Both the position numbers and the translations under genes were made by a program. From Zygnema cylindricum (lineage: Eukaryota; Streptophyta; Zygnematophyceae; Zygnematales; Zygnemataceae), in contig JBBHKE010002135.1 in assembly GCA_037447655.1 (NCBI GenBank), forward strand, positions 310,001 to 374,000: DNA of 64,000 nucleotides. Reading direction: 5' to 3'. Below the pieces are notes generated by a model. That model saw nothing but the letters and a program-made list of their open reading frames with translations. It made no database searches and had not been told where the DNA came from. Below are positions 26,253 to 63,012 of this stretch, piece by piece (the first letter of the stretch is position 1; each line of letters opens with the position of its first letter).

Positions 26253-27974
26253 ACGGATCAGTTTTCTGACTTTGACTTTAAAAATGAAGAGAAGGAAGAG
26301 GGAAAAAAAAATCTGCAGATTTACCAAAGGAGAAGGAGGAAAGGACAACATCCGAGGCAACGCCACAATACGAAGTGGAAACCAAAGAGGAACTTGATGA
26401 GACACCGGAATTGGAAGATATGGGAGCTAAAAATCTCCCTAAACGAAACCCAAGGATGCCTTCCATACCGGCGTCCGATTTTGAAGGGGGAAGAAGAAGT
26501 AGTAAACGACTTCAAGAAAGACAAGTAAATAACCAACTCACAAAGATGTCTCACCCTGATGAACCTCAGACATACTTAGAGGCCATAAACACTCCCGAAA
26601 GTAGCCGGTGGATCACCGCTATAAATGAAGAAATGGCCTCTATCATGGAAGCCAATACATGGGAGTTAGTAGATTGTCCACCGGACCGAAAACCGATCGG
26701 ATGTTAGTGGGTTTTTAAACTTAAATTAAACCCGGATAATACCATTGAGAGGTACAAAGCTAGATTAGTTGCAATTCCTTCTCTTAGAATCCTTTTAAGT
26801 GAAGCCGTAACGAGGGATATGGAAATCCACCAGATGGATATTAAAACGGTCTTTTTGCACGGAGAGTTGGAAGAAGAGATTTACATGAGGCAACCGGAAG
26901 GATTCATGGAAAGTGAGGAAAAAAACAAAGTTTTGCAAACTGATATAATCACTCTATGGGCTTAAGCAAGCCCCACGACAGTGGAATATAAAGCTCGACG
27001 AATTTCTGACCAGTTTGGGGTATATCACAATTAGTTCAGATCACTCCATATATTTATTTGAGGATGAGGATGGAGTGATATTTATTGCTATTTATGTGGA
27101 TGATTTGTTAGTCTTAAGCAAGTCTTTAGATAAAATTAATAAACTAAAACGGGATATAAGAAGCCGCTTTGACATGAAAGATCTAGGCGAAGCAAAGTAC
27201 ATTTTGGGAATTCAAATGAAGAGAGATAGAGGGAATAGGATTATAAGACTCACTCAGAAAGAAGCAATTGGTAATATGCTAGAAAAATTTCAAATGGAGA
27301 AAGAAAACGGATGTACTACTCCCATGGATTTGAAGAAAGTGAGTGAGGGGAGTGAAGAGGGAGGAATATTGATCATAAATGATGAGATAGATGAGATAGA
27401 AAGAAGATTTATGCAAAATATCTCTTATCAGCAGATTGTAGGCAGTTTAATATATTTTATGAATTGTACCCGGCCGGATATAGCTGCAGCCGTAGGAGTC
27501 CTCAACAAGAGTCCAAATGAACCAAAAAAGAGAGACTAGGAGGCTGCCAAAAGGGTGATGAGGTATCTGGTGGGGACAAGGGAATTGTGGTTGCATTTGG
27601 GAGGGGAGTACACTGACATCACAACGAGGAGTGATTCCAGTTATGGAGATGTGCCTTTAAGGCGGTGTACGACTGGATATGGGTTGCAAATTGGATCGGG
27701 TACATGCTGTTGGAGTAGCAAGCAACAGAAAGTAGTTGCTCAGTCCACTGTGGAGGCTGAATACATGGCTTCCTGTGCTGCTACCAAAGAATTAATGTGG
27801 GTGAAATCTCTTCTTCAAGAATTTTGGTTCATGAAGACAGTAACTCAGAATGTTTTTTGTGAAAATCAAGCTGCTATCTCTATTGCAGCTAATCCGAAAC
27901 ATCACTTCAAAGCTAAGCATATGGATATTAGACTAAGCTTTTTCAAAGAGAAGGTTGAAAAAAAAAATCATTAA
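26253..27974 (+). pseudogene. copia reverse transcriptase and RNase H, element A2
   Basis: A linker and the RT start are open at 26375-26707 (EEMASIMEANTWELV), with a TAG where relatives have Lys (CKWV). About 60-70 bp coding for the segment after RYKARLVA is deleted near 26770. RT continues with MDIKTVFLHGELEEEIYM and an active site YVDDLLVL (about 27097-27120) in the open piece 27015-27539. RNase H follows at 27555-27974 with CTTGYGLQIGSGTCCWSSKQ, the STVEAEYMA motif and CENQAAISIA. It would copy element RNA into DNA, but stops and a deletion have inactivated it. Confidence 0.85.
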
Positions 27975-32343: not shown

Positions 32344-34246
32344 TTAACATTTTCCTGCCTTCGCTACACAAATTTGTTTTTTCTTAGCTTGGATCTTTAG
32401 GGCCGATAGCGTACATGCGTATCCGTTGACTTTCTTAAAAGTCCACACATTCGTGTAACACTTTGCCAAACTTGCACACGTGGCTCCTGAAGGAAAGGGT
32501 ATGGCCTTTTTATTCAGTCCCGTGCAACCGACCAGGATCGATCCCAAGTCCCCGGCATCTAAACACACCTGCATTTGAAAAACAAAAAAAAAAAAAAGGT
32601 TTTTAGGTGCTGAAAAGGTTTTTCTGCGTTTTTTTGGGGTCATTTAGAGGTTGTGAACAAGATATAGAATTGAGAAGTGAAACATGCTCTTGTTTCTATG
32701 CTTTTGAAAGAGTTAAAAACGTCATGATTGATTTTGAACGGATTTTACGGTGTTTAATAAAGGACAAAACTTTTTTTTGAGTCTTGATACCGTACCTCTG
32801 GAGTGAGACCTAAAGCAGCGTTGCTATTAAGGATTAAGCGACCGCAAAATATTCCGGGATTCAGAGTATAGAATTTCTCCACATCGCCATTCATTTTGGT
32901 TGCGATAATCGAGTTACACGTGTCCTCTGGCTGAACTTGGTACGGGAGAATACATGGGAGAGGATAGGGAGGGTCGCCTCTTCTGATGCACACCTGAGGA
33001 AGGGGAGAGAAAAAGCGGAGATAAGTCGACAAACTCACAAGGCAAGTGGTTTTCACAATGGCAATAAGGAAGTGAATGAATAGAGGATCACTTTATTTAG
33101 GACTTTTTTAGGGTTTTTTAAAGTAAAAGTTTAAAATGATACACATAGAGTTTAAGATGGGCTACAGCCGCTGCAGCAGGCCGAGGTCCAGCAGCAGTGC
33201 CGCGAGCAAAAGCGAAAGCCGCATCGGCACGACGCCGGGGCGAATAGAAAGACGCCAAGTTGTACATTGCAGTTTTCCAAATGGCAGCCATCTACGAGAA
33301 AGTACTCACGAAGTACAAACATTAATGTTTCAATTATTATTATTTATTATTTCTTTATTTTTTTGGTCTGAGGCCAGCGAGCAGGTCAGCTTTCGGTCTG
33401 CCGAACCTGTTGGTACGGTTGAAGATCGGAACAGTCGAGGTTCGGGTTGGGCGATCCAAAGCCGGAGATGTTTGTCGTCATGTTGAACATCTGCACGAGG
33501 GAGGTGCAGCTGTCGCCCTGCGAAGCGCACCACAGCCGCACGTGCGCACGCAAAATTATATAAAGAACATGAGTTTAATACGGGTTCAGTGAAAATGTCA
33601 TACACCGGACAAACATTTGGGTTGTATACAAAATGTAATGCGGCAGAAAAAAAACATATCGTAGAAAGAAGGCACGTGGCACGGTTAGAATTTTTTTTTT
33701 TTCCAGCGTACATTTTTATGCCACAAAAATGAGCAAAAGTTAAAGAGCTGACCTCAGCAGTGGAATAGGGGAGGGCGCACGTGCGAGAGGCTGTCACATT
33801 CACTACAGTGCCAACCGGGGGAGGAGCACTGCAGTTTACATCCTGCCGTACAAAAAAAATAAGACAAAAACAAGAAAAGAAAAAGAATAACAACCGAAAA
33901 ACGTTAGCCAGGCAGGTGTTCCCGAGTTTTTACAAAACTTGTCATTTTCTAGACATGCAACAACCCTTGCAAAAACCTTTAAAAACCCTTAAAAACCCTA
34001 GAAACCCTAAGTACATAAAAAATGCAAACACAACAAGTACAACACGATTTCCCCTTTCCACACTGGAAACCTCCACTTCCATGTATGTACAACAACACGT
34101 ACGGATGCCAACGGGAAACGAACGACTTACCGGATTTTGTTGCACAAAGGTGTCGTTGGGAATTCCGTACGCATTTTGGATGTCGCGACATGTGACGTTA
34201 CCATTTTCTGGCACGGTATAGGTTTGGGGACCGTCGCGAGTCACAG
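32344..34246 (-). CDS. exons 23-27: four LysM-like modules and C-terminus
   Basis: LysM1 spans exons 23-24 (34246-34131, 33842-33753): QTYTVPENGNVTCRDIQNAY, then QQNP and VNCSAPPPVGTVVNV. LysM2 is in exons 24-25 (33517-33407): CALPYSTAEGDSCTSLVQMF, then NPNLDCSDL. LysM3 is in exon 26 (32993-32796): CILPYQVQPEDTCNSI, then LNPGIFC. The fourth, more diverged module is in exon 27 (32568-32344): PSGATCASLAKCYTN, then VNGYACTLSAL, ending CVAKAGKC and TAA. LysM modules bind chitin, peptidoglycan and related GlcNAc glycans. The introns are phase 0. No GPI signal or membrane helix follows. Residues are about 959-1204. Confidence 0.88.
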
Positions 34247-37200
34247 CTGCCACACAGCGAAACAACAGCGCCAGTTTAGGGAATCACGAATACTTGCTAA
34301 AAAAATTGATTTGTTTTCAACATAAAAACCGTCAACGTCTGTCCAAATCCACACGTGTGAAAATAATTGATAAATGGTTTTAGCCTTAAGCTTATGTGAT
34401 AACCATTATTGCACCGTACACACTAATTGAGTAATCGCGCAGAAGTTCTCCACGCGATTTCGCACACATTTCCCTGCGTCTGCTTTTTTAAAGGTTTAGG
34501 GTTTGCCAAGAGGCGGCCTTGGGAGTGCACGCAGGATGGTGCTGACCTGGCACACACGTGAGAGGGCTTTCAAAATCGACGGGCGAATAGCCGATGGGAC
34601 AGATGCAGAGGTACGATCCAGGGAAGGCGACAGAGTTGACACAAGTGCCGACGCCGCACGGATTGCGCGATGAAAACGTGCACGGTTTGTCTGCAGAACA
34701 GGACAGAAGTCACAAAGTACGATGGAAGTAAACAAAGTCCACGTAGTCAAAGTACAGAACCTGCTTTTTAACAGCCGAAAATTGCCGTACGGCGTAAATT
34801 AGCAAGCGTCAAAAGTTATATTTTTCCAACGGGTGAGACCGGCCTTGCATTCTCACATTTTTTGGTACCATTATTATTGTAACTGGTCAACAGTAATGCC
34901 CATTATAGGTACGTTTGACTAACATATAAATGCGTGACATAAACTGTGAGCTAGAAAGCTACAGTGATTTTACAACATCCGCTGTCACTTGCAACCTTTC
35001 TATGCGTGCACAAAACTGAGAAGTTAGAAGCTCATTATAACGGCATCATATCGCACGGAAGTTATAATACGCATTGTATACTTGACTTGAGGAGAATTAG
35101 TCAATTTCATTCAACATTTCGAATCTACGGCAACATGTGACTCTGTGGGGACGATAAAGCTATTATAAGCGTTTATACTACATAGTGACGCTTCACCAAA
35201 ATAGTGTGCAAACGCGACAACGTCACATGGTGAAATGCGTTCGCCCTAGGGCTTGAACCCACTCGGCCACCAAAAGGAACATTTCAAAAAGAGCATTTCA
35301 AAAGGAGCTTCAAAAGGAGCATTTCAAAAAGAACATTTTAAAAGGAGCATTTTAAAAGGATCATTTCAAAAGGAGCATTTCAAAAGGAGCATTTCAAAAG
35401 GAACATTTCAAAAGGAGCATTTCAAAAGGAGCATTTCAAAAGGAGCATTTCAAAAGGAACATTTCAAAAGGAGCATTTCAAAAGGAGCATTTCAAAAGGA
35501 GCATTTCAAAAGGAGCATTTCAAAAGGAGCATTTCAAAAGGAGCATTTCAAAAGGAGCATTTCAAAAGGAACATTTCAAAAGGAGCATTTCAAAAGGAAC
35601 ATTTCAAAAGGAGCATTTCAAAAGGAGCATTTCAAAAGGAGCATTTCAAAAGGAACATTTCAAAAGGAGCATTTCAAAAGGAGCATTTCAAAAGGAGCAT
35701 TTCAAAAAAAGCATTTCAAAAGGAGCATTTCAAAAGGAGAATTTCTAAAAAAGCATTTCAAAAGGAGCATTTCAAAAGGAACATTTCAATAGGAGCATTT
35801 CAAAAGGAGCATTTCAAAAGAAGCATTACAAAAGGAGCATTTCAAAAGGAATATTTCAAAAGGAGCATTTCAAAAGGAACATTTCAAAAGGAGCATTTCA
35901 AAAGGTTCATTTCAAAAGGATCATTTCAAAAGGAACATTTCAATAGGAGCATTTCAAAAGGAGCATTTCAAAAGGAGCATTTCAAAAGGAGCATTTCAAA
36001 AGGAGCATTTCAAGAGGAGCATTTCTAAAGGAGCATTTCAAAAGGAACATTTCAAAAGGAGCATTTTAAAAGGAGCATTTCAAAAGGAGCATTTCACGGT
36101 CGATTTCAACAAGTGGCCGAATTTTGGCCGTTAGATGTCGATGTACGGTCATAAATAGCCCGATCGTTGAAAAATACACTATGTCGCTATTATTGTTAAT
36201 AATTTTTTCTCCTTTTCAAGCGTCTCTTCTCCGTACACACTTTTCCGATTTTCACATGATCGGAAGGTGAGAATCTTTGCTTTCAATCGCAACTGTCACA
36301 TCCATAATCCAACAAACGTGTACGGGAAAAAGATGCTTTAAGTGGCAAAGAAAACAAGAACAGTACGGTACTAGCGATACACGGTGTACCTTGAAATGAC
36401 TCACTTTGATGGCCAAATGGGCAACGACCTTAGCACAGCTTCCGTACGAAACGGCTGCACTTCTACGACCTATGGCAGAGCAGCAAAGAGCGTGCGAGCA
36501 CCTGGCGCGCAGGTCTGCGTGCCGTCCGAGTTGGCAACTGCCACGAAGTTGTCGGCGCATTCGCACAGATTCGTTGCGCCGTATGGAGTGCATATTCCGT
36601 TGCCGCACGGATTCATGAGCCCGGGGCCGTTCGCCGCCTTCAGCTTCTTGCGGGCGAAGTTGTTGACGAGGCACGGGTCCCCTGGAATAAACGACAATCC
36701 CAACCACAAAAACTGTATCGGATTAATAAAAGCACACGGTTAAATTCTAGCAGCGAATCATCTGGTTTGTAGATATTAACACTGCTTGCATCCCAAAAAA
36801 GTCACGGTTGATAGCTTTCGGGTTTTTTTTTCATTTGAATATGAGAAATCAAGTTTTTAGGTGGAATTGCAAATGCAAATGATAGACTGCATTTGTAACA
36901 AACAAAAAATCTATTAAAAATCTAAATTCTGGTAATAATTCCTCCATCCAAAACGAGGTTTTAAGTAAACCAAGTTTAAAAGACACAAAAAGCTATATTT
37001 AAATGATCTTATTAAAATACCCCAGTGCGACATTGATTTAAATACAATCCACAGACGAGTTATTAGTGCAAACACCAATACACGTGTCAAGTTCAATGCA
37101 TTTACTTTTTGCATTTTGAGACAAATGCAATGAGCGTATACGAGTGTACACTTGATAGGTTGTGTATTCAAGTATGTTTTTAAGAGGTCTAAAACAAAAG

Positions 37201-40200
37201 CGCGCATACCTAAAAAAAAAAGAAAACAATTATAAGTTGCCGTCAACATCAAGTGCAAAGAAAAAAAATGTTCCCGGTCCTCCTTCATTTTTATTCCTCC
37301 ACGACCTTAAGAAAAAATGGTTTTCCTAACCAGAAGTAACCATATTTTCCTTACCTGGCGCTGCGACGATTGGTATAAACGCAGGTAAACTATTTATCCC
37401 GCAAATTCCCAGTCCTCCGATAATCTTAAGGCGCATGTAACCGTTGTCGCCCCAATTGGGGCCCCAAGAATTGCGGATGAGCCAATAGGGAGGACTGGAT
37501 GTCAAATCATATCCAACCACAACAACGGCGTGGTCGACTCCGTTGGAGAAGCAGTCCTCATCCGCAAAAACCCCCTGCATGCATTCAGTACACGGAGGAG
37601 AATAGTTAGAGTATAAAAAGGCGTGGAGTTAGGAGAATACACGTGTCGCGAGAAGGTTTATTTGCATGAAGGAGAATTCATACTGGGAACTGAACATAGA
37701 AGAGACCTATCTCAAGATAATTTGTAGAAAGGTGAAAGTTAAAAATAGAGAAAGCCAAGAGGATAGTCGAAGGAATAAAAATTTTGCCCCTTCATTTTGT
37801 TAGGAGGAGAGTCTACAGTCAAGGGGTTGAGCTTGAAGAGAACAATCTCGATAAGATTATCATGAAAAAAGGAGAACAAAAACAACCAATCCTTTTCCAG
37901 ATTACAGTGTCTAATAAGATAGACTATCACCATCTAACAAAAAAGGTGGGAAAACAGTTACCGTCGTAAAAATCTTCTATGGAGCAATAAAGCGTAGACA
38001 TTCATGAGGCTCCTGCTATCGAATTCCATGAAATTCTTGACATGAGATAGGCGTATTAAAAATCTATATACAAATTTACATCACCCTCTAGATTTCGGGA
38101 AGATTTGCACGGCTTACCATTTTGGGATTGTAATTTTGGAAACTGTCTCCACTCGCTTCTATGCTCACAACAGCCGGCTGCTGTTGGAGCGCCAAAAGCA
38201 ATCCTAGCCATCCGTTCATCTGGACTCTCTCAAAAGAAGATATGGTGAAACTACCGACGGTCTGCACATATGCCCACATACAGACAATTCTCGTTAAGAT
38301 CTATTAGCATAAGTAAAGATCTATTAGTATGATGCAGCATATCGCTTAATGGAATTTCTGTTTTTATTTATTGATTTATTCTTGAGATTTCCCTTTCTCA
38401 TATTCGTAGGTGTCTAAATTTTGAGTGAAATTTGACAACATCGAAAGCAAATTGCCAGATTGCAGTTTATCAAATGTTTCCTTCTCTGCTTGAGAGCTTC
38501 GAAATGTGGTTTACCTGTGCTCCTGGACAAACCCCTTGGCTATATTCAGAGGTTAGAAGGAGAGTTTTGTTTGCCGCATATTCGAGTGCTTCCGAGGGCC
38601 AACCGCCAGCAGGGCAGTCTCGATTTAAGCTCGAGCAATCCAAAATTTGGTATTCAGAAATGGGGCTTACAGGGGAGCTTCCCGCTTTGGCAATGTAGAT
38701 TGCACTTTCAACTGCTGAAATGGATGCAAATAGCCAACAAGTGTCTGCCAAAAAAGATCATTATAAACAAGTAAATAAAAGCATTTCAAAATTGTTTTGT
38801 TGTTTAAGAGTTGAAAAGGTATGCAGAAAAGACTGTCTACAGAGAGGATATACTTCAGTTTTATTTGTTCGCGCGTTTTGTATGTAGATCAACAATCAAC
38901 TCCAAAATTCCCTCGCATGTTTGCTATCAGGTTTTTCCTCATCTGAAGTAAGATTGAATAAACATAAACTGCTCCTAAAATTTCATATTAAAATCATGCT
39001 TATATCCAAAAATGAACAAATAAAATCAATGTCTTCCTCAGTTTCACTACTATGATGATACGAAGGTGATGAACATACTGCATAAAAGTTGGTCCTTGAC
39101 TGGCGCCACAGCGCTTCGCTTCACCCAATTCCAGCTGGTGGCGACCAACCACGAGGGGTTATTATTGTCATCGGGCATCAGATATCCCGCACTTCCATAT
39201 CGGAAATATTTGTTCATCTTCGTTGACTTTACTTGTGGCGAACTTCCGAGCCCAAAACCGCGATCATCTGCATTTCAACGGCAATGAAGTTAACATGCAA
39301 TCTTATTTACATAGGATGGTATATACATATTATAGAAAACCTATAAAAAACTTTACTTCGTTTTTTTTTTTTTTTTTTTAATGCCACAGTTGTGCAAAAC
39401 CGTCTTCTGTTTTCATTTTTAGCAGTGTGTATTCTATCTCAAAAGAGGAACCTGCAAAAGATTCTTCTTTTATCCAGCAGATTTCTAGGAAATCTGCTAG
39501 GTTCACCTCAGAAAGCGCCATCCATGACGTTTCGGCATTTGACGCTTGAGATTTGACAAGCGAACATGGCATAAATGAACGGCATCGATTATACCTACCA
39601 AAAGTACAGGTGTAATCGCTAGTTCTAGTGAGGTATCCGTTGTCACAAGTACACGGCACATCCAAAGCCGTACAGATACCGTGGCCTCCGCATGCGCCCT
39701 GGGGCTGTGCCGCATTGCAGAACCTGTCGCACTCTGATGGGAGTCTCCGTGCTGGGTCCGTACTGGAACACGTGGTTTGTTGCGAGTCCACGTCGAGACA
39801 ATTTATAACATTTATCAAACAGGTCCAGTTTCCGTTCACGGAAACATTTGTTCCTGTCAGGTAGTTGAGGCTCACGTCCACTCTAACGCTCATTATAGTT
39901 TGGAAAACAAGAGCAAGATTTCCTGTCAAAAGGTTGTTTCGGAGATTTCTGCAACATTCAGGGATAAAAGGGATATTGTCGTTAGTGGCATCCTGTAGGC
40001 AGGACTCTTATCTTTCCATTTTTTAGTAAAGCTAGAATGCACTACGAAAAAATAAGGTGCATTATGTAATGATGGTGCTTGACAAAAGGCAGGAATTTGA
40101 TGGAAATGCTTGAATGAAGTTAGCAATAAACTATGTCTGGTAACGTTCAGCAATTGCTAATTATTAGATGAAATATTGTGAATAAAAAGTATTCTCGTAG

Positions 40201-43200
40201 ACTTTGCCATCTAGTTCAAAGACTAAGCTGCAAGACAGCGTGCATTATTGCACGACCAAGTCCTAGGTGTATTAATTAAGAAATTCGTGATCTTTTGAAA
40301 AACGAAAGCACAAATGCATCCCGATTGAATGAATGTATTTTTATATAAATGCAAAACGCAGATTTACATCTGGCCAGCGTTCAATTTGCCACAACAGTAG
40401 TTGTACAGTTCTTGAGTGAAACTACTCCGGAGTGATTGAAACTCGTTAGAGTAAACGACCTTAACCTGGGGCCATTTCGGTTGAATCTTTACTTGTGCTT
40501 GGGTAGCCGTCAAATGTACAGAAATATATAACGAATTAAAAAGAGTACCTAACAGATTAATGATAGAAGTTCTCCTGCTGGCAAAAATGGAATTTTCTGT
40601 GATACGGCTTTTCATTCCCATGCCTTTTTTTTTTCTTAGCGTGCGTAGTTGTTAAGGTACATGTGGCTGTACGATTTTGTATAAATTTTCCAGGATAATT
40701 GAAAAAAATGTTCCAGTTGTGAAAACGTTTATGCGACCATCAACTTATTTCTTTTCATTTTTGTCATTTACTGAACTGCTCTGTACAGATTTTAGCAAAC
40801 TGAAAATCGAAACAGAAAATTTCAATGGGAGTGGGCCTTCCATGGCAGCAATCTCGCATCCAAACTATCTTTTTTTCTAGTAACGACAGCAATCGGATAT
40901 TTTTTGAGGTTGTAAAGCAGGAAATGGTATCAGGAAATTCCTGGCAAATCAGCTCTGTATGCCTCCCAAACATATGTCAAGAAAAAAAAACAGTCTGCTT
41001 ACATGTTGATGACTTTTTGAAGATTACCAAAGCTAGTAGGTATTGTACCCATGAGGCGGTTATTGGACATGTCTCTGCAAAAGACAAAGTGTAACAAAAA
41101 AAACATTTCATTGGTACATTGGACCTTTCAACACTTGTTTTTCGAAGTAAAATCAAAAATATTTCCGCTCTTTTCAAATTTCACATATGGAAACAAACTT
41201 TCCATATCCATGGTGGCGAATTCTAGACAACGTACACTATTCGAAGACTGCTAAGGTTGCCGAAGCTGTCAGGTATACTCCCATTAAAGCTGTTGGAATT
41301 CAAGTACCTGCAAATAAAGCGAATGTTTCTTAAAAACATACTTGGAAAAATCTGGAACTTAATATCTCTCCCACAAGCAAATTCGATTGTAGAAAAATGA
41401 GACATGCATTTTAAAAAGTTGGATCTTCAGGAAAAAGGGGTGATTTGAATTATGAGCTTCTGTACCCAAAATTTTACCCACAAGCCGTTTTATTAGCATA
41501 AAAACACAGCCAATATGTGGACACGAATAAAAAAACAAGAAATTAGTAAATTTGGACATTTTGAGACTAGCGTTTGAAGAAATTTAATGAATTTATTTCA
41601 AAACGTTTCACTTTTTAGCAGTTGTAGATTGACAAATACCTCAAGAGACTCCAAAAATGAAAAGAATAGTTGAGATTGTTAGGATTGCAATGTGGGATTG
41701 CGAGTGTTGAAATGTTGGTTCGTTTTCAGTGTGGGTCAGTTTTGTCGCGCGTCACGTCGCGCATTTCACTTCGTTTCGTTTCATTAGTTCTTTTAGCTTC
41801 GTTTGTACTTTTAGAGTGCGCATTTCATGTACACACGGTTTGATAAAGTTTCCGTATAGGACTTCAATAGTTTCGGTTGGCGCGCTGTACCCCTCGAACT
41901 TTCGTTTCGTGCGAGTTACGTTTTACGTGAAGTACTTCTACTGTTTTGTTTGGAGTAGTTTCAGTTGGCATCGTACCTCAATTTGCGTTTAAGTGCATGT
42001 GACACTTCTAGAATTAGATTTCGAAAGCTAATCCGACGACTAAGTTAAAATGCCAGCTAGTGAGGGAAATAGAGTTAAGGATAATTTTTTGAGGAACAAA
42101 CGTAGAAGCAATGTATGAGTATTAATGTGAGTTTCCTTTTCTAATTTAATGCATTGTCTCCGTCTTATGTACATAAGAATTCAATGTATTTAACGTGGGC
42201 TGGTTGATGTGTAATTTGAGTTTAAATTCACTCCCGCATTGAGAAATTTGTAATTTTTTAGCGCATTCCGATTGCGTATCGATCCTATCAGAGATTTACG
42301 AGCACTTGTCGACCAACCAGTCGCTGGTATCCCGAAAAACAACTGTATTTTAAAAAAATACATCGACCGTTCCTTAAGGGTACAAATCCATGTTTTAGAA
42401 AATAAATTATCTTTTACAAAAAAAAACGATTGTACTAATGGCCAAAAATCAAAATCTGCATTATGTTCTTCTTTTTCAAAATTGATATTGAAAAATTGAA
42501 AACTTACAGCTCTTGCAGCTTTGCTAAATTCCCAATATTGGAAGGAATTCCACCTTCGAGCCTGTTTATGCCAAGTTGCCTGGCAGGTCACAAAAAATAT
42601 TAAGTGATTAGAACCTAATTTCATATCCGTAGCCCTCTACTCAAAGTTTGTATTTTTTCCATGACATTGTTTCCAGTGCAGTTCAAATTAAAACGTTTTT
42701 TGAGTTAGGTGGAGGCAAGCATAAGCTGCATCGGGAGATATTATTTGGTGTGGACATACATGAAACTTGCAATTCGAGAAGCAAGTAGTGTAGGTTTTAC
42801 CAGTAAATAGTACTGACCTAAAGTCATGTAGGTTAATAAATAGTGTGGATGATTTTGGAGCAAAATGTGGATGTCTTTTCATATGACTGATGGCCTATGA
42901 TATGAAATGGTTACTTTCTTTTGTTATCAATTGGGGCATTTTGTAAGGAACAAAACTGGGCTGGGTATTAATTTTTTATCGGCGGAAGTTCATAAAGGTT
43001 TCCTTTTATCTCTTTCTTTCGAAGTAAAATCAAAAATATTTCCATGCTTTCCAAATTTACATATAGAAACAAACTTCCCAAATCCACAGTAGAGAATTCT
43101 AGACAACGTACACTTTTCGTAGATTGCTGAGGTTTCCGAAGCTGTCAGGTATACTCCCGTTAAAGCTGTTGAAATTCAAGTACCTGCAACAAAGCGAATG

Positions 43201-46200
43201 TTCGTAATGCCATAAGTGAAGACGTTAGGAACTTAGTATCTCTCCCAAAAATAAATTCGAAGGTAGAACAATGAGATATGCATTTTAAAAATCTTGGGTC
43301 TTCAGGTGATTTAAATTATGAGCTACTTTACCCAAAATTTTACCAAGATGCAGTTTTAGAATGAAAACATAACCAGCATGTGTACAAGAATTAAGAAATC
43401 GGAGTATATTATAATTGGACATTTCTAGATTTTAGAGGAATTAAATGAATTTATTTCGGAACATTTCACTTTTTAGCAGTTGTAGATTGACAAAATCCTC
43501 AAGAGACTCCAAAAATGTCTGGTGTCACAAATTGAGCAGTTGAAATTTGGCGGCATTTGTCGACCAATCAGGTGATAGTATCCCGAAAAACAACTGTGTT
43601 TGAATTTTCACAATACAAAATACATCGCCGGGTTTCGAAAGGTACAAATCCGTAATTTAGAAACTATAATATCTTTCACAAAAAAAAAGATTATATTAAT
43701 GGCCCACGATCAAAGTCTACGTTGTGTTCTTATTTTTCAACATTGATGTTGAAGAGTTGAAAACCTACAGCTCTTGCAGCTTTGCTAAATTTCCAATATT
43801 GGAAGGAATTCCACCTTCGAGCCTGTTTTTGCCAAGTTGCCTGGCAGGTCACAAAAATTATAGACAAATAATATAAAGTGATCAGAATCTAATTTCATAT
43901 ATTTTCCCACATCTTTCGTTGTCCTCTATTCAAGGTTTTCGTTTTATCTTTGACATTGTTTCCAGCACAGTTCAAATTAAAACGTTTTTTGAGTTAGGTG
44001 GCGCATCAAGGCAAGCAAAAGCTGCATGGGGAAACATTATTTGGTGTAGACATACATAAAATTTGAAATTTTCTTCAAGCGCTTCATTTGTAATGGAATT
44101 TGAACTCATTAAAACAGTGCTCACACTAAATAATTATTTAATTTAATAGCGATTTGCAATGAGGAGTTTTACCTCTAATAAATGGTGTAACTCAACAACG
44201 GCTCAAGAACTATTCACATGAAATTTATAACAACAACATTGATTTCTATTTTTTAATTTTTCGTATGATCATGACTACCTGACAACTTTCCAAACTCTAT
44301 TGCCATGCAACTTCACATGCATTGGGAAAATTGTATTCTATTTTTCGAATTTGTGGAGCAACACTTCTAAGCAACACAACTCGATTTCATGCAGAGGTTT
44401 ATCATGCCATTATGATGTGTGAAAAATCTAGTACAAAATTGTAAAATTGTGTAGTAAAATTGTTGGAAGAACTTACAATGATTGCAGATTTGTGAGATTT
44501 ACGAAACAGTCTGGAATACGACCAGTCAGTTGGTTGTTCAGAAAATTCCTGTCACAAAAGGAAGCCTAACCAGTCAAAAAGATTCACTAGACTGTTGGAA
44601 ATCTTAAGGAAAGTCTGTATGCGGTTCTGTCAAGCCAAAATGGAAGGTAGGGAAGAATCCGTTTCTTACAAAGATCTCAGACTTGTCAAGTTGCAAAGAG
44701 AATTGGGAATGCTTCCACTCAAATAATTGGATTGCAAATTCCTGTCAAGTTTTACAGTTGCCTATGTTAATTCACACTATCATTCACTCTCCATAGTTTT
44801 TTCATCAAGTACTTACATGTACTCAACATGACAGTTTTGTAGAGCCGGAAAACGTAATTGACTCATGCTTACCTCGTTCTCTCCAAAAACAAATTGAAAA
44901 CGAATAAAATATACAATGTCAATGTAAGCATGTGATTTTGTCAAGACCCTCCTTAATTTTTGTAGTTCTCAACAAGAATATTGTGGATTTGCTTACAATT
45001 CTTGAAGTGATTGCAATTGTCCGAGGATTGGTGAAATGATCCCCCCATATAAAGTATCGTTCATTATCCTGCAGAAGAAAAAACGTCGAAATCAAAGATT
45101 CTTTTGCATTGTAAGATAATTCGTGCGTAAAACGAGCCAAAATAGTGCTTGGTGAAATCTCTTTACATTAGAGTTGGGAACTTTTGATCCACAAATCAGG
45201 TCACATGAAAATATTTCTTCTCCATACATGGCAAAGTTTTGAAAGAGGGCTCTTAAGTTTGATAATTGCAAAACCGCCCAAAGACAAATTAGTTCTTGAC
45301 CTCGAGAATTTTGCCAAATTATCGATGATGTAGAAAGACAAGAAAGGTTATAGAAATTTAGATTATTAACGCAGAGATAGATCAGATTCATGAAGCCATT
45401 TTGGGTCATTGGGCACACCATTTTTAATTATTACAAAAACAAAAGGACAGGTCTTATAATTTTTAAGGAAATGCCTAATGTTGTGAAGTGAAAAGTAGTG
45501 CCTCTGTTCATATGAATTCTTGCGTGATTCAGTGATAAATTCACATCCAGTTTATCATGATATTCCACCAGACTGTTCAAAGGCCTCTGTTGGCCTAACT
45601 TACAATGTAATTGACTTTCAAAACTTATGTCTGTCTAAGTTTAATAAAGCTTTTTTAATTCATTCGCTTTTGGCAATTGCCATTTTGAAATCATTCTACA
45701 TGGATGAATCCAAGATCATTCTTGAGGAATGGTTACTGAAATAACATTACAAACTTTCCCTTTTAAAATTAAACCAGGATGCTAGAAAGAGAACTGAACA
45801 GTACATAGCACGATGCTGTTTAGATATCAAAAAATGTTTTACTATAGAGTGTTTAGTGAACAGAGACCTACAATTTGGTCACCATCTGATTTTCACACCC
45901 CACGTTGCCCCATTGGCACACATCCGATAAACTTCCCCAATATCTCAGGCTATCTGATACATCCATCAATCCAAGTTTAAACTCCAACAAAATAGCTCCT
46001 GGAACAATAAAAACGTCAAACATTGAAATTAATTTCTTTGCAAGTAGACTTTCCGTACAAACTCACCATATGCTCCACAATGATCTCAACGCCATTCCCA
46101 AATGTCTATAAAGAAAAACCACTCTTAGTCAGAGGTTATGTCCGGGTACATGCGTATCTCCTCGACCGTTTGGACTAAGTTGTCCATCAAATGAAAAGGG

Positions 46201-49200
46201 AGGTTGCCGTACCGTTTCGTACTATGTCGTACTCTTATTATTTTTTTGAAAAACAGCATCACAGAAGATTTGACCAGGCACTATCAAATACGACAGCAAA
46301 ACTACATACTAACGTGTTCCTTCAAGGTTGACTGTAGAATATATGTTTTGACGTGTACAAAATTCACGTTAAATCGGTCACTCTCAAATCTAACTTGGGA
46401 ACAAGTCAACAAGGAATTTAATGAAGAAAAAGAAAAAAATTAGTAAAACTTGAAGGTGTTCATAAACATTGTTAAAAACTAGACATCGTTGAATTCTTGA
46501 TGCAAGCCAAATGAACCAATTCATGCTTGAAAAAGGGTTTTCATTGCAATAGTTTTGGAACGACATAAACAATGAGGAATTAGGAACCACCACTTCCCAT
46601 AGAAAACTAGGAAAGGTTAGGAAAAGTTCTCAAAGTTCTTTTGTATTGGAGTACTTGACGAAAAATAGTGTGACCTACCCTTGGAGGAATCGAAGAAATG
46701 AAATGAACTAAACACATTTGAGCATAAGAGAAAACTGGGAACTATGGGTAGTTTTTAAAACGTTATAAAAAACAAGTAGGAATAATTTGGTGTTGCTGAA
46801 GAGAATAAGAAAACTTCTATTACTTCGAACATAACAAAATTTAGTCCTTACAAAAAGTACTATATATCATAGACTATAGAATACGTTGGGTTGAGATAAA
46901 ATACTTAATCATCAATCGTAAAGGAAATGATTGATATTGTACCTTGAGACCCACTCGGGAAGGTAGGGGGTGCTGACGTCACAGAAGGATCATAACCAAA
47001 AAGAGAGACAGGAATGGATCAGTAAATAACAAAAAAAAAAAATTGTTGTCTATCTAAACCAACACGTTACCAAAGCAACAACATTTTAATCCCCATACAT
47101 CATTTACAATAGAAAAGCAGATTGGCATGAAAACATCCTTAATATGGGAAGCAAAGATGTCAACTTTATGAAACTTAAAATCAGTTTGATGATTGCTTGA
47201 CTATGAAAAATTCATTTAAAGACTTAAAGGAACAACATAAGCTTTAGCTCCATGTTTTGTTCAAGGGGTTTTAACTACAAGAGAATCTTTAAAAATATTA
47301 CAAATCTGGCTAAAAATATACTTGGACTATCTTTCTTTAGTGAAACTTGTATATCTTCTTTTAAAAAAAGAGGACACCTGTGACGAATAATTGTACGAAA
47401 AATATCTATTTTTTGTCAAACTTGCCTATCAATTTTTCGTGAGATGTTGACGTGTGTTTGTTTAAAAATTTTACGAAAATTCACCGTTCATGTTTGCCTT
47501 TTCCGTTATAATAAGAAATTCGTTTGTATTGAATATACGGTTCCCTCGCTCTTTAACATACATTTCCAACCGTACAAGGTACAACAAACCCTCAGAATTC
47601 ACATTCACAAAGTCAACGCGAAAATATAGTATGCAACAAGACAAAATCGTGAGACCTAGGATTTAGAGGACCTGGAGGAGGTCGTGGTGGAGGGATAGGG
47701 GGAGAAGGAGGAGGTTTTCGAGGAGGAGGAGGAGGTTTTCGAGGAGGAGGAGGAGGTTTTCGAGGAGGAGGAGGAGGTTTTCGAGGAGGTGGTGGTCGGG
47801 TAGAAGGGGGTGGTGGTATTGGGGAAGATCGAGGGGCTTGTATCGGAGCGCAATGAATCAAAGCAATCAACGAAATCATCAGCTAGGGGCGTAGTGAATT
47901 GAGGGGAAGGTGGTCAGGGGAGGGATACTGGTATGGAGGGGAAGGCGATGGTGGTGGAGGAGGAGGAGGAGAAGGTGGTGGAGGGGAAGGCGATGGTGGT
48001 GGAGGAGGAGGAGGAGAAGGTGGGGAGGTGGAGGGGATGGTGGTGGTGGAGGAGGAGAAGGTGGAGGAGGGGGAAGGTCTGTGATAAAAGAAAAATCACA
48101 ATAAACGACAACTTTAGAATGTTGTAACATATTGGCAAGAGTGTCGTGTTCTTAAATAGTATTTGCAAATACAAAAGAAGATGAAATTTGGCATAAAGAG
48201 AACAAATTATACGTCACGGAATAGTTCAAACAACTTCACAACATTGTTTTGAGGAAATAACGTTATGATTGCCTTAATAATCATTATTATATGAAATAAT
48301 GATATCTTTTAAACTACACATGAGCATGGAAAGAAAATAAGTAACTGAGTGAAATCAAATGCTACAACAATACGCGATGTGGGATCTAGGGTAGCATGCT
48401 CACAAAATATTAAGGTTCTATTAAAACTTTGATAGGAAGCAATACTGAAAAGGTTTTCGTTAGAATAATTTTTTAAACATCAAAATTAGAAACTCTACCA
48501 AAATGCAGTCTAAAACCTTGAAATTTTAAGATTTCGCATAATTACAGGATATAATTTGGATACGGATGTACACAAGCCGACAATACCAAAACTCCAAGCA
48601 CAACTTTCAAAGTAGAGGCTGGACATAATGGCAAATGAAGAAAGCCTAGTAATGAGGTTTTTTAAAGAGAGAGAGAGAGATAGAGAGAGACGACCATCCT
48701 AGCTAAAGACGTCAAAACCACTTGATTTTCCACTAATTTTCATCTTGTATTGTGGACCATATCATATTATGTATTGAGCAACACAATACAAAGTGATTAT
48801 GGAAAAACGCCATAAAACATTCCAAAAATCTCACTCCTACATTTTGGGAACTAGAAAAATTGTAAATTCAAACATTCATAAGCATCGTTTACTATAATAT
48901 CTCCCGTTTTCTCCTGTCTTCCCGTCATCCCCTCTCCTATGCCATCCAATGCCATGATCTGAAGAGTCAATCGATGTACTTTACGTACTTCGCCCTCGAA
49001 CGTAAGTATCTCCAGTTGCAGTTTTTGTGGTCGGTATGCTTCCATTTGATTTCAAGCAGCAGGAATTTCCTTGAATGAAATAACTCAGGCATCTGCAATC
49101 TTTTGTGCACCGTGTTTTGCAAAGATTTGCGGGAGGACCGCATGAACCGATAAAATAACCGTTACTAACTGTTAATGGGTATTTTGTGAATGAGTCAAGT

Positions 49201-51441
49201 AGTCCAGTGGAAGTGCAAGTCTGAGCCTCTGCACAAAATAAACACTAATTGCATTAGAATTTTGAACGCATGCAGTAGATAAAAGTCAACAGGCTTCTTA
49301 CAAGGAGGAGTTCACTTCCTCTATTTCTTTTTCCTCTTTGGGGAAGGAGATTGAGGACCCTAAGTGAACTATTGTCAGGAGGATATTCATTCAAAATACC
49401 AAAGAAAACATTTTCTGTTCTGACCTTGGCAGCGGGGCACTGTTTCTTGCATTGACAATGATCGAATACTATAACTCAACATAAGCCAATGATGTTAATA
49501 CAACAAATCTAATATAATTAAACTAATGCTATGAATAAAGATTTTTGAGTCGGGTGTCACTCGGGTTGGTACGTTTACTTCTGGTGTTATGTTAATCATT
49601 TGCACATGTACTTCATTTTTTTGTCCTTTGTGAGGAAGATAACTTTTTACACCTGTATATTAAATGCATTTAAAGGAAATAAAAAACTTTGGCATCCACT
49701 GAGTATTTCATTGCCAAACGCCAAAATTTCAATCGGAAACAAGATGTCAAGGGCGGTAATCTCTGTATAACGGTTTTCAATTAAGTTAACAAGATTTTGA
49801 CACCAATTTCACCATAATTCAAAGGGTTGAAAGTGACCTAGTGAGTCAAGATTAAGACTTCACAGTTGAGGTCAAAAAACCTCTGAAAGATTCATATGTC
49901 CTTATGTTTGATGAATCCTAGTTATAGATTAAGAAATGGACACAAGACGCGGGCATCGAACCTTGAATACTGGAATTTAAACATTTTTAAAGAAAGTTAA
50001 ACTTATAGATTTTGAACTTTAAATGCTAAGAATCGAACATTGGACAACGGCCATTGGATATTGAAAATTTATTATGGGACATTGGAGAATTGAAATTGGA
50101 AGCTCGACATTGATATCGTATTCGGGACATTAGACTTTGGACTTGGACATCCGACATTGGACATCTAATCTTCAGTGTTGGATAAAGGACATTGGACATA
50201 GAGCATTGGGTATTGAACATTAAAAACGCTGATATTTTGATAGACTTCAAATGTCAAATACTGTACTTTTGCAAACTGGACGTCAAAAACTTGATAATTT
50301 AACAAGGTGGACATTGGACTTTAAGCAATAGATATTTGAGGAATTTACATCAAATATAAGATATTATGGGCATCGGACGCTGGTCATTGGGCATTGGACC
50401 TTAGACATTGAGAAATGGACAAAATATCAAGCAAAAACTGAATATGAAAGTGGAAATTGAACTGCTGCATGTTGAGCATCAAGTTCAAAGATTGAACATC
50501 ATTGTACATGGACATTTGGACAGTTGGACGATTGGATATTGGAAATTGGAAATTGGAAATTGGATTTTGGAATTTAGATAGAATTAAAGGTCAAGTAATT
50601 GCCCATTTCCAGTTAAAATTGAGCAATGAACTTGTATTTTTCGCCGCCAAAATGATTCCCACATGCTACTTTTAATTGATAAGCATCATAATCTTCGAAA
50701 TTTAGGTGACAACGGGCATTGGCATTGCATGCTAAAAGACGAGAAACAAAAAACTAATAAAATCCAAGCTCATCAAATCGTCAATTTGTTTTATTTCTAA
50801 GTGTAAAAAGAGATATCAAATCAACAAGAAGCACCTTGCAAAGGCAAAACTCAGTTGTTTATTAAAAAAAAAAAAAAAACATTATCAAGTACGCATGACG
50901 TTTGAAAAACGTCCGTATAATAAAATGCAATTGTTTTTTTTTGAAATAAAATTACAAATGTTTATTATCCTGTCAACTTTGACATGCTGCTACCTTCTGG
51001 CCAAAAAAAAAAGAAAAAGTATGGAAGAAAAAGAACACCACCGCTATATTGACAAACATCAAACGGATACTCACACACACGCAAATGCAAATATAAATAA
51101 GAGGGCTAAAAGGATCTCGGAAAAAAAACACGCATCAAACCTCCATTGATCCCCGCTATTAATCCTCCGATATCTATTCTTCCCGAGCTTGGAAAACAGC
51201 GTGCACACCATATAGTCAAATACATACTATTTACCATATTATGTAAAAGAGACAAGAGTAGTAAATTTTAAATAGGAGAGGTGGGGAGAGAGACAAAACA
51301 AGAAGAGAGAGAAAATAAAAGTAAGCAAATGTCTAGGCATGTTCCCACGTGTGTACGGCCTGGGGTCTCACCTGCTATCCCGCCATGGAGGGCCATGGCC
51401 GCCACAAGCGACAAGAGCATCTGCAGGCAATGAGGCGACAT
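32344..51441 (-). CDS. secreted multidomain papain-family cysteine protease (PAN-like, Pro-rich, LRR, EGF, C1A protease, EGF, EGF, LysM x4)
   Basis: I reconstruct 27 exons (high to low): 51441-51372, 50731-50670, 49226-48989, 48078-47929, 47836-47672, 46972-46943, 45998-45872, 45068-44997, 44741-44670, 44548-44477, 43840-43769, 43183-43112, 42579-42508, 41307-41236, 41074-41003, 39948-39599, 39267-39079, 38744-38515, 38261-38118, 37574-37355, 36681-36502, 34690-34547, 34246-34131, 33842-33753, 33517-33407, 32993-32796, 32568-32344. Every intron is GT-AG and the phases agree, giving 3615 nt and about 1204 residues plus stop. From exon 5 on I am confident; exons 2-4 (donor choices) are tentative. 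There is a signal peptide and no transmembrane segment, so the product should act in the wall or apoplast. LysM modules bind GlcNAc-type glycans, LRRs bind partners, and the protease domain keeps its catalytic residues. Volvox is reported to have LysM-bearing chitin-binding cysteine proteases (from memory), but I know of none with an LRR array. Confidence 0.85.
34547..36681 (-). CDS. exons 21-22: two EGF-like modules
   Basis: Exon 21 (36681-36502) encodes DPCLVNNFARKK, then NPCGNGICTPYGATNLCEC and TCAPG. Exon 22 (34690-34547) encodes NPCGVGTCVNSVAFPGSYLC, then ICPIGYSP and LTCVPG. Each is a single symmetric phase 1-1 exon, the classic form of shuffled EGF modules. They probably space the protease from the LysM modules. 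Exon 21 uses a less common donor (GTGCTC). Residues are about 851-958. Confidence 0.85.
35271..36096. repeat. minisatellite of 14-bp units in the intron between exons 21 and 22
   Basis: About 59 head-to-tail copies of GGAGCATTTCAAAA with few variants. Because three units make 42 bases, the plus strand carries a long chance frame with a 14-residue repeat; this is not a gene. Confidence 0.97.
37355..39267 (-). CDS. exons 17-20: papain-family (C1A) protease domain
   Basis: Exon 17 (39267-39079) encodes the start of the mature domain, SWNWVKRSAVAPVKDQLLC, with the oxyanion-hole Gln. Exon 18 (38744-38515) has the catalytic Cys in NTCWLFASISAVESA and SEYQILDCS. Exon 19 (38261-38118) has NGWLGLLLALQQQPAVVSIE. 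Exon 20 (37574-37355) has the catalytic His in NGVDHAVVVVGYD and Asn in WLIRNSWGPNWGDNGYM. All catalytic residues are present, so it is probably active, although the usual GSCWAF is NTCWLF. The usual N-terminal I29 inhibitor prodomain is absent; only about 30 unrelated residues separate the EGF module from the protease. Residues are about 590-850. Confidence 0.93.
39599..39948 (-). CDS. exon 16: last LRR, Cys-rich cap and first EGF-like module
   Basis: A 350-nt exon. It opens with the ninth LRR (NLRNNLLTGNLALVF, joined to exon 15 through a split Ile codon) and passes through VDVSLNYLTG and a paired-Cys segment (NWTCLINVINCLD). It ends with an EGF-like module containing ACGGHGICTALDVPCTCDNGYL. 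The donor GTAGGT at 39598 leaves phase 1. Because one exon holds both LRR and EGF parts, the LRR array and the protease half cannot be two separate genes unless this exon is shared. Residues are about 473-589. Confidence 0.85.
41003..45998 (-). CDS. exons 7-15: LRRNT_2 cap and eight LRRs
   Basis: Exon 7 (45998-45872) encodes AILLEFKLGLMDVSDSLRYW and VCQWGNVGC, the classic N-terminal cap of plant LRR proteins. Exons 8-15 are each exactly 72 nt with phase 2 on both sides, one 24-residue repeat per exon, such as SNYLSGSIPNSLCNLTSL, NNQLTGRIPDCFVNLTNL and NSFNGSIPDSFGNLSSL. This one-repeat-per-exon pattern is that of plant LRR receptor kinases. No kinase follows. Instead the ninth repeat runs into the Cys-rich/EGF exon of the protease. 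The array would serve as a binding surface for a protein or peptide partner. Residues are about 239-472. Confidence 0.9.
41130..42775 (-). repeat. intragenic tandem duplication, copy 2 (LRR exons 13-14)
   Basis: It matches 43018-44060 through exons and introns, for example TTCGAAGTAAAATCAAAAAT at 41141 and 43019. It carries an extra stretch of about 600 bp (about 41690-42280) not found in the other copy. Confidence 0.8.
43018..44060 (-). repeat. intragenic tandem duplication, copy 1 (LRR exons 11-12)
   Basis: It is the partner of 41130-42775. The encoded repeat pairs differ at only a few residues (GKNRLEGGIPSNIGNLAKL against GINRLEGGIPSNIGNLAKL). Confidence 0.8.
46943..48078 (-). CDS. exons 4-6: proline-rich, extensin-like region
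   Basis: Exon 4 (48078-47929) begins NLPPPPPSPPPPPPSPPPP and then reads Leu/His-rich in the frame that fits the splice phases. Exon 5 (47836-47672) encodes four copies of a KPPPPPR-type unit, then SPPIPPPRPPP. Exon 6 (46972-46943) is a 30-nt exon encoding PPTFPSGSQ that leads into the LRR cap. Such Pro/Ser-Pro tracts are typical of wall glycoproteins and would be hydroxylated and glycosylated, giving a rigid spacer. The second half of exon 4 would be proline-rich only in another frame, so an indel or a different donor is possible. Residues are about 124-238. Confidence 0.65.
48667..48690. repeat. GA microsatellite in intron 3
   Basis: AGAGAGAGAGAGAGATAGAGAG, with one interruption. Confidence 0.8.
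48989..50731 (-). CDS. exons 2-3: Cys-rich, PAN/apple-like segment
   Basis: Exon 2 (50731-50670) encodes a 20-residue piece (CNANARCHLNFEDYDAYQLK); its donor is weak. Exon 3 (49226-48989, or to 48985 with the alternative donor) encodes NGYFIGSCGPPANLC, then CTKDCRCLSYFIQGNSCCLK, then TATGDTYVR. The cysteine spacing and final aromatic-Val resemble the PAN/apple domain of plant lectin receptor kinases, which mediates protein or sugar contacts. The match is by eye only. Residues are about 24-123 of the protein. Confidence 0.55.
49960..50580. repeat. degenerate ACATTGGAC-type repeats in intron 2
   Basis: GGACATTGGACATT, TTGGAAATTGGAAATTGG and similar words recur irregularly every 8-20 bases. This is an old simple-sequence expansion inside the intron. 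Confidence 0.6.
51372..51441 (-). CDS. exon 1: start codon and signal peptide
   Basis: The ATG at 51441 opens MSPHCLQMLLSLVAAMALHG, a hydrophobic leader with small residues (GGIAG) at a plausible cleavage site near residue 22-24. The donor GTGAGA follows at 51371. A GA/CT repeat lies 140-180 bp upstream. Confidence 0.75.
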
Positions 51442-56734: not shown

Positions 56735-58038
56735 GTGCCTCCCACTAAGGATTCAGCGTCCCGCTGAACTTTGAGTGACTCAAGGAAACTGCAATTGCCG
56801 GAGTATGTCATATGTTTCCTCCGATACTCTTCAAACTCCTGGCAAAGGGCGTCGAGTTGATTTTGGAGCTGTTCACATCGGGTCTCCAGTAACGCGATGT
56901 GATGATCTGCAGCTGCCAACCGCCTCCAAGTGATTCGTTCCCGAACCCGATCTTCCCCTTCCTCAATCTCGAGTACTTTGGGCCGCGGCGGAACGTTTGC
57001 CGGTGCAGGCTCCTCGGGTGCCGGAATCCTGGGTTCTTGAGGTTGAGCCACTGAGGAACTTCCTCCGGTTCCTTGTCCGCCGGTTCCCACCGAGGTACCT
57101 TCCGTAATTTGAAGGACACGTGTTTCCTTGCAGCTCGGGCCCGCTGCAGAGCATTCCTTTGAGCCAGCTTGAGTACTACCTCCGCTCTAGAGATGATGTC
57201 GTGGAGGCGGACATCCCACGAGTGATAATGACGGAGTAGCCCGGGAACATCAATCTTGTTCCTGTAGTTGTCCTCTACCACTTCCACGAACGGTAAGGTG
57301 TGAGGATTTAGCTGCACATAGCCTTTATGATTATTTCCCAGGTCCTTGGTCCGCATGAAATTCCACGCTAGGTGTGACGGAACGTCGGCGGGGATACGGA
57401 TAGGATCTCCAGGCTTCCCTATACGCCATTCCTCGAGCCACTCCGAGGGGTTCCAATAAAACATTTTGGCGAAGCTGAAGGCGAGGTCCGGATACTGGGT
57501 GTCGACCGGTAGTGAGAAGACGTAGTCGAGAATTTCCTCTCCCTGTTCACTCTCCTCCTCCGAATCTCTTCGGTTTTCTCGCAGGAGGAACACATCGTCA
57601 CCACTGGGGTATTGTTCCTCTGCCTTCCTCTCCGCGCTTTCAGACGACTCCTCGTCCGCGGTGCTCTCCTTGTTTGGGTCCCGCATCACCTCTAGATCTG
57701 AGGCGCGCTCCTCAATTGGCGGAGGCGTTGGTTCGCGTTCCGGTTTCTCCACCTCCGATAGTTCATGATCTGCTTGAAGTTCCTGATCACCTTCCCGGGT
57801 TCGGGTGTATTCAGGGTCCTATGTGTTTTTCTGACCCCTCCCCTCCACTGGTCTCTGCCGGTCCTGCCTCGCTACTGGCACTTTCCTCCGGTTCCGGCTC
57901 CAGTTGTACTTCTCTTCGCCTGCTTGCTTCCACCATGGCCTCCGCCGCCCTTAGCAATCTCTCGGGACGGTTCGGGTCTCCTTGTCCCACCCGTACCAGT
58001 CTCCTCATTTTCGGTGGTGGAGAGGACGACGACGCCAT
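56698..58038 (-). pseudogene. extra 3' reading frame of the gypsy element (unknown function)
   Basis: Between the chromodomain and the 3' LTR there are about 1.3 kb of coding-like DNA in the same strand sense. A first piece starts MASSSSPPPKMRRLV at 58038 and is rich in Glu, Ser and Pro. The main piece (57752-57090) starts MEKPEREPTPPPIEE and has a folded-looking core (YVFSLPVDTQYPDLAFSFAK, MFYWNPSEWLEEW, IPADVPSHLAWNFMRTKDLG). After about 57090 the coherent reading moves to another frame: Pro-rich, then a likely coiled coil, AAADHHIALLETRCEQLQNQ, ending at 56698. One or two frameshifts separate the pieces. I do not recognise the domain. Standard gypsy elements end with integrase. Confidence 0.6.
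56738..56750 (-). promoter_or_regulatory. polypurine tract region, gypsy element
   Basis: Reading the minus strand, AGTGGGAGGCAC directly precedes the 3' LTR start TGTAACAGGG. It is purine-rich and in the expected place. Confidence 0.55.
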
Positions 58039-58186
58039 AGACACTGCTGAACCAGAGAATTCCGGTAGCTCCAGAAGCGAAGGTAAACTGATTGTGCGGA
58101 GAGAAGCAGTTTCCAAGCTGCCGAGACTGGGTTGGTCGTGAGGACGAATGACGGTTGTATTCCCGGGGGTAGAGGGTTTCACTTTT

Positions 58187-59430: not shown

Positions 59431-59433
59431 ATC

Positions 59434-60437: not shown

Positions 60438-60440
60438 CGT

Positions 60441-62991: not shown

Positions 62992-63012
62992 GCTGTCGAT
63001 TCACGGGTACTT

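Follow-up and report, generated by a model that had tools for sequence, protein, structure and literature searches.

The minus strand of the window, the 64,000-nucleotide stretch of Zygnema cylindricum DNA analysed here, carries a gene of 23 exons that join into a single open frame of 1030 amino acids with a terminal stop. In order, the encoded modules are a proline-rich segment, an LRRNT_2 cap, eight LRRs, an exon holding the LRR end and a first EGF module (EGF1), a papain-type protease, EGF2, EGF3 and a LysM part (Table 1). The exon chain is real, the family to which the gene belongs is real and large, and the architecture is unusual. The gene and its many relatives are possibly, at about an even chance, extracellular recognition proteases whose LRRs would select or sense a target, likely in defence.

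Table 1. Features of the protease gene and of two candidate exons upstream of it, in window coordinates.
Feature	Position	Strand	Evidence or remark
Candidate signal-peptide exon, not joined to the LRR gene	51372..51441	-	
Candidate PAN-like exon, not joined to the LRR gene	48990..49228	-	PAN_2 E = 0.048
Pro-rich (extensin-like) segment, first exon of the confirmed frame	47672..47836	-	5' boundary provisional
Short linker exon APPTFPSGSQ	46943..46972	-	phase alone
LRRNT_2 cap exon	45872..45998	-	Pfam 21.3 bits; 54% identical exon in C1930, C535
LRR exon 1, 72 nt, degenerate	44997..45068	-	pattern score 9/11
LRR exon 2, 72 nt	44670..44741	-	Pfam and LRR-exon pattern
LRR exon 3, 72 nt	44477..44548	-	Pfam and LRR-exon pattern
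LRR exon 4, 72 nt, copy A of intragenic two-exon duplication	43769..43840	-	
LRR exon 5, 72 nt, copy A of intragenic two-exon duplication	43112..43183	-	
LRR exon 6, 72 nt, copy B of intragenic two-exon duplication	42508..42579	-	
LRR exon 7, 72 nt, copy B of intragenic two-exon duplication	41236..41307	-	
LRR exon 8, 72 nt	41003..41074	-	Pfam and LRR-exon pattern
LRR C-terminal cap and EGF1, single exon	39599..39948	-	EGF_2 0.0011, below cut-off
Papain exon 1: GLGL...YFRY...SWNW-type linker and oxyanion Gln (VKDQ)	39079..39267	-	without I29
Papain exon 2: catalytic Cys (TCW)	38515..38744	-	
Papain exon 3	38118..38261	-	
Papain exon 4: catalytic His (DHA) and Asn (NSWG)	37355..37574	-	
EGF2, Cys-rich module	36502..36681	-	no Pfam EGF match; 10/10 paralogues
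EGF3	34547..34690	-	Pfam EGF 4e-6; 10/10 paralogues
LysM1, first part	34131..34246	-	LysM 0.011 over LysM1 piece; 10/10 paralogues
LysM1 end and LysM2 start	33753..33842	-	9/10 paralogues
LysM2	33407..33517	-	LysM 0.0034; PDB 5bum chitinase A E 0.0018
LysM3	32796..32993	-	LysM 0.0071; 8/10 paralogues
C-terminal exon with stop (fourth LysM of the preliminary description)	32344..32568	-	no Pfam match; 6/10 paralogues

The protein model was built by in-phase joining of exons predicted from genomic DNA alone. All 22 introns of the chain (47836-32344) have GT donors and AG acceptors. A preliminary description of this DNA had proposed a phase-consistent minus-strand chain over the same span, which was re-derived here as 23 exons in one open frame; the single frame of that description stands, its length of 1204 amino acids does not. 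The same description had placed the last LRR and the first EGF module in one exon, and exon 39948-39599 indeed has no stop between the LRR end and EGF1. Because the two share this exon, both parts belong to one gene, and the papain part is then in phase with it. A piece near 44872-44817 was rejected as an exon, since it breaks the phase and is superfluous: 45068-44997 joins 44741-44670 in phase.

Profile searches with Pfam bear out most of the modules assigned earlier. Peptidase_C1 matches the 1030-residue model at 4.9e-42, LRR_1 at 3.2e-21 over six stretches and LRRNT_2 at 3.4e-4 (21.3 bits, against a cut-off of 20.7), in agreement with the LRRNT_2/LRR array and the complete papain-family catalytic domain first described. 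The eight LRRs correspond to eight 72-nucleotide exons in the same phase, the first of which scores lower than the others, and both the LRRNT_2 cap and the 24-residue plant-type repeats are traits of plant LRR receptor-like proteins. LysM exceeds its cut-off over the whole protein (2.8e-8; 34 bits against 20.9), with no single stretch passing alone; when the modules are cut out singly, three match at E values of 0.003-0.011, all below cut-off, and the fourth has no match, so that three of the four LysM modules claimed are retained, each with a weak match of its own. The EGF modules fared unequally. EGF reaches 0.0015 in the full model (19.2 bits, below the cut-off of 21.5), EGF3 passes this cut-off when cut out alone (27.4 bits), EGF1 alone matches EGF_2 below its cut-off (19.8 bits against 22.1), and EGF2 alone gives no Pfam EGF match.

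The papain part has the catalytic Gln, Cys, His and Asn of peptidase family C1A within Peptidase_C1. Its best match of solved structure is ficin (1.3e-35), and its closest solved relatives, among the best 60 of 174 matches, are ficin, protease omega, the ervatamins and caricain. An inhibitory I29 propeptide is usual in family C1A, although not universal. Pfam found no I29 match in the model, and none where EGF1 meets papain in the window or in the linkers taken from two paralogues. A canonical papain encoded by this genome, used as positive control, gave 7.9e-16; in the copies a short linker of the GLGL...YFRY...SWNW type, with variations, occupies the place of I29. Among solved LysM domains, those nearest to LysM2 are the chitinase A entries 5bum (E 0.0018) and 4pxv (E 0.0081), which we take to be from a horsetail and a fern. 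The C-terminal half also sets the protein apart from two known classes. RD21-like plant proteases are described as having a C-terminal granulin domain (PMC3292552), and no granulin domain was found by Pfam in the 1030-residue model; the kinase domain of LysM receptor-like kinases is likewise absent from the model, the frame of which ends after the LysM part.

What the preliminary description presented as a single gene is a gene, but in fact one of many. Across the genome (352.8 Mb in 2689 contigs), at least 150 exon matches to Peptidase_C1 were found among 303 candidates and at least 150 to the EGF1 exon among 440. At least 52 loci, the window included, have an LRR-end/EGF1 exon that is followed, on the same strand and no more than 9 kb away, by a papain exon. 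When the distance is extended to 16 kb, 60 of the 150 EGF1 matches listed, again including the window, pair with 56 of the 137 C-terminal papain exons listed; eight of these 60 pairs lie beyond 9 kb and may bridge two genes. Among the matches listed, 90 of the 150 EGF1 exons and 81 of the 137 C-terminal papain exons have no partner, in some cases because only listed matches were paired: locus C2033 is unpaired among them, yet has EGF1 when read in detail. The reversed order, with papain upstream of EGF1 on the same strand within 16 kb, does not occur among the matches listed, and opposite-strand pairs within this distance number one.

An exon-by-exon comparison was made of ten paralogous loci, with upstream sequence reaching 8 kb in nine and 2.3 kb in one. 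EGF1, the four papain exons, EGF2, EGF3 and the first LysM exon (A) are present in all ten, in the same order and on one strand, and the later LysM exons are found in nine (B and C), eight (D) and six (E). The downstream stretch ends early in C535 and C2482 and the contig ends early in C784; exons D and E were not found in C39, where about 6 kb more was read. Two to eight LRR exons were found upstream of EGF1 in each of the ten; in control searches, shuffled sequence gave 0 to 0.2 LRR exons per locus and the reverse strand gave two in C1662 and one in the window. Two of the ten (C1930 and C535) yielded an LRRNT exon. Such recurrence of exon order is far beyond chance, and chance or artefact as the source of the architecture is ruled out by it. 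All four catalytic residues are present in the 11 copies (the window gene and the ten paralogues), although in C2482 the Trp beside the catalytic Cys is replaced by Ser and a stop interrupts LysM3.

Loci outside this set of ten are more varied. C2033, one of four extra loci read, is intact up to EGF3. C2409 is decayed, with a stop in LysM3, a fourth papain exon of only 13 residues and no match to EGF2 or EGF3. Locus L039 (G000:C1824) has divergent papain exons, possibly of another subfamily, and no match to EGF1, EGF2, EGF3 or LysM in 6 kb. L037 (G000:C270:218900-225100), which belongs to a cluster on its contig, consists of two LRR-EGF exons in inverted orientation that look almost the same by eye and enclose no papain exon, and two further loci (L043 and L044) have no papain exon 4-5 kb downstream of their LRR-EGF exons. 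By eye, no other named domain was seen in the open reading frames of these three papain-less loci; L043 and L044 are perhaps members of a sister LRR-EGF family with another C-terminal module or none.

The modules of the family seem to have travelled together, since their pairwise distances correlate. For EGF1, papain, EGF2 with EGF3, and LysM, rho is 0.69-0.85 among 12 loci (66 pairs, or 55 where LysM is involved), and none of 2000 permutations in a Mantel test gave a value as high. The LRRs vary in a patterned way. Over 62 LRR exons from 11 genes, entropy is highest at positions 23, 4, 1 and 3, which, going by the known LRR fold, presumably lie on the concave strand. Substitution rates were estimated by a simple Nei-Gojobori count in six paralogue pairs, which share loci and in which exons were matched by position. 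In all six, dN is higher at concave than at convex positions and lowest at structural ones (0.59, 0.20 and 0.05 in one example), position 23 having been counted as concave only once its entropy was known. With the concave set first used (1, 3, 4 and 6), exposed dN exceeds that of the rest in five of the six pairs, and C1255/C1930 shows the opposite direction (0.066 exposed, 0.111 for the rest). In the window gene, two LRR exons and their introns are tandemly duplicated, the exon-containing blocks being 88-90% identical and the others 72-90%. The duplicated exons differ at four amino acids, three of them concave (position 23 counted) and one convex.

In the same six pairs the papain is under purifying selection (omega 0.13-0.33). 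Omega is 0.15-0.43 for LysM and 0.06-0.33 for the structural LRR positions, and at concave positions it ranges over 0.26-0.88 in five of the pairs and reaches 4.6 in the sixth, which has two exon pairs and few sites; EGF1 is also loose (0.23-1.09). Positive selection on the LRRs is not demonstrated by this count in the six pairs, and as concave omega lies below 1 in five of them, weaker constraint would give the same pattern as recognition-driven change. An enzyme with a housekeeping role in the wall, for which the LRRs, the proline-rich segment and LysM would merely provide lodging and in which LRR variation would be drift under weak constraint, would agree with these omega values, with the pair in which exposed dN falls below the rest under the first position set, and with the proline-rich tract adjoining the LRRs. 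We nevertheless regard it as unlikely, though worth keeping in view, since change is greater at concave LRR positions than at the well-kept structural ones, with a conserved papain in the same pairs, and since the family is so large.

Allorecognition systems, too, are expected to have variable recognition faces, and a protease of the same anatomy could serve in mating, during conjugation or in a sexual extracellular matrix, its LRR array reading partner identity while the protease opens or matures wall proteins. A host from the plant lineage is compatible with such a role. However, at least 52 loci spread over many contigs are many for a mating system, and we consider this explanation rather improbable. 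That two adjacent genes, one for a receptor-like protein with LRRs and EGF and one for a papain protease with LysM, have been read as one is very improbable and was set aside on exon phase and the ten paralogues: LRR-EGF exons without papain do exist, but the chain is open and phase-consistent across the EGF1-papain junction, exon order is the same in the ten paralogues and never reversed among the matches listed, and the I29 propeptide expected before a free papain is missing.

The 5' end of the gene is where the earlier model departs most from the present one. Its signal-peptide and PAN-like exons could not be joined in frame to the LRR part, because the proline-rich stretch at 48078-47837 changes frame; the PAN-like exon matches PAN_2 only at E = 0.048. 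Some 9 kb of sequence ahead of the LRRNT exon gave no PAN exon in either C1930 or C535 (best E 0.057, over 17 residues), and PAN was rejected as a family feature on its absence from both of these paralogues. C535 has a proline-rich open reading frame some 1 kb ahead of its LRRNT exon, and C1930 has several such frames at 6-7 kb upstream. The window protein is likely secreted, judging from its EGF and LysM content, the signal-peptide exon being a candidate only, and no C-terminal transmembrane segment was noticed by eye in the 1030-residue model. Among land plant proteins, LRX proteins join LRRNT-LRR to a proline-rich extensin tract in the wall; they are not known to have a protease or LysM, and their tract follows the LRRs. 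The window gene resembles them in joining LRRNT-LRR to a proline-rich tract, but differs in order, the tract preceding the LRRs.

A minisatellite of 59 copies of the 14-nucleotide unit CAAAAGGAGCATTT lies at 35271-36096 of the window, in the EGF2-EGF3 intron of the protease gene. Three open reading frames (7322-9206, 13532-15416 and 25482-27974) appear by eye to be fragments of Copia-like polyproteins, and two near-identical Copia-like copies, 7194-7493 and 13404-13703, lie 6210 bases apart and are 99% identical over 300 nucleotides. On the minus strand at 57811-63000, Gypsy-like polyprotein reading frames (gag, RT and integrase-like, by eye) were seen. Elsewhere in the genome LHC genes are abundant (88 exon matches), and G000:C519 and C2590 hold dense LHC gene arrays on both strands. 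When an LHCII fragment was compared with solved chains, the top match was chain 2 of 9vfj, a 620-residue LHCI-2 (two stretches, 500 bits), followed by 7xqp and 8htu (408 bits), seed-plant chains such as AB80 (386-381) and 6kac (363); 7xqp and 8htu are presumably moss chains and 6kac presumably from Chlamydomonas. By this ranking the host would probably belong to the streptophyte green line.

Cf-2 of tomato is an LRR protein. It is coupled in trans with the secreted papain-like protease Rcr3, as a receptor-like protein in a guarded-decoy pair (PMC7468133). An LRR-type receptor and a secreted papain-like protease thus cooperate there, as is proposed here, but in tomato they are two proteins, whereas the window gene encodes one chain with LysM and EGF, without I29 and, by eye, without a membrane segment. 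In Chlamydomonas, also a green alga, LysM proteins with a peptidase_C1 domain have been reported, so the joining of papain to LysM is not new; the available text of that source mentions no LRR array, LRRNT_2 or EGF and does not describe a large variable family (PMC2728734), unlike what is found here. Nor is Volvox, to which the preliminary description ascribed LysM-bearing cysteine proteases, named in that text. In the oomycete Aphanomyces euteiches, modular papain-like proteases with CBM1, CAP or ML have expanded in gene clusters (PMC10084794). They share with the present family a secreted papain, an added binding module and gene expansion, but their C1A domain is N-terminal and the module C-terminal, and no LRR, EGF or LysM is named in the text available. 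Brown-algal LRR-ROCO genes have LRRs of one 72-bp exon each, exon duplication and positive selection at concave sites (PMC11378527). The likeness extends to all but the last, since concave residues stand out here with omega mostly below 1; moreover, LRR-ROCO proteins have a GTPase architecture and belong to another lineage, and codons in their exons are read from nucleotide 3 rather than from nucleotide 2 as here. No LRR-EGF-papain-LysM protein was found in the titles and abstract openings of the top-ranked papers from searches of the open-licence literature. The pairing of papain and LysM is already known; the architecture of a large LRR-EGF-papain-LysM family is unusual.

If the family does consist of recognition proteases, the LysM and EGF modules would hold the protease on a GlcNAc-containing glycan, be it chitin, peptidoglycan or a wall glycoprotein, and the LRR arch, which differs in each paralogue, would select a protein or peptide ligand. 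Ligand binding would then deliver substrate to the protease or, alternatively, free the protease from restraint by the N-terminal half, which would replace the missing I29 propeptide. Glycan binding by LysM is predicted from the whole-protein match above cut-off and the resemblance of LysM2 to chitinase A LysM domains, and activity of the papain is predicted from its catalytic residues, present in all 11 copies compared, and its low omega. The glycan-tethered protease with a recognition array of the preliminary description fits this combination of conserved protease and LysM with a variable LRR concave face, the tethering itself being putative. Copy number and the pattern of variation would fit microbial defence better than a single housekeeping job in the wall. 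More tentatively, and with rather less than even confidence, the family may form a germ-line repertoire of dozens of secreted proteases, with a constant papain and anchor and LRRs varied by concave changes and exon duplication, so that sensor and effector would be combined in one chain.

In plant immunity, LRR receptors and secreted papain-like proteases are separate proteins that come together in the extracellular space. If the proposal is true, a large family with both in one protein, together with a LysM anchor, would couple recognition directly to proteolytic attack, and would offer a simple system for studying how an LRR array gates a protease that lacks its propeptide. It also provides a test case for whether algae of the plant lineage diversify recognition by LRR exon duplication, as has been proposed for brown algae. 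Should the repertoire exist, it would correspond to receptor-protease pairs of the Cf-2 and Rcr3 kind, with the two partners fused.
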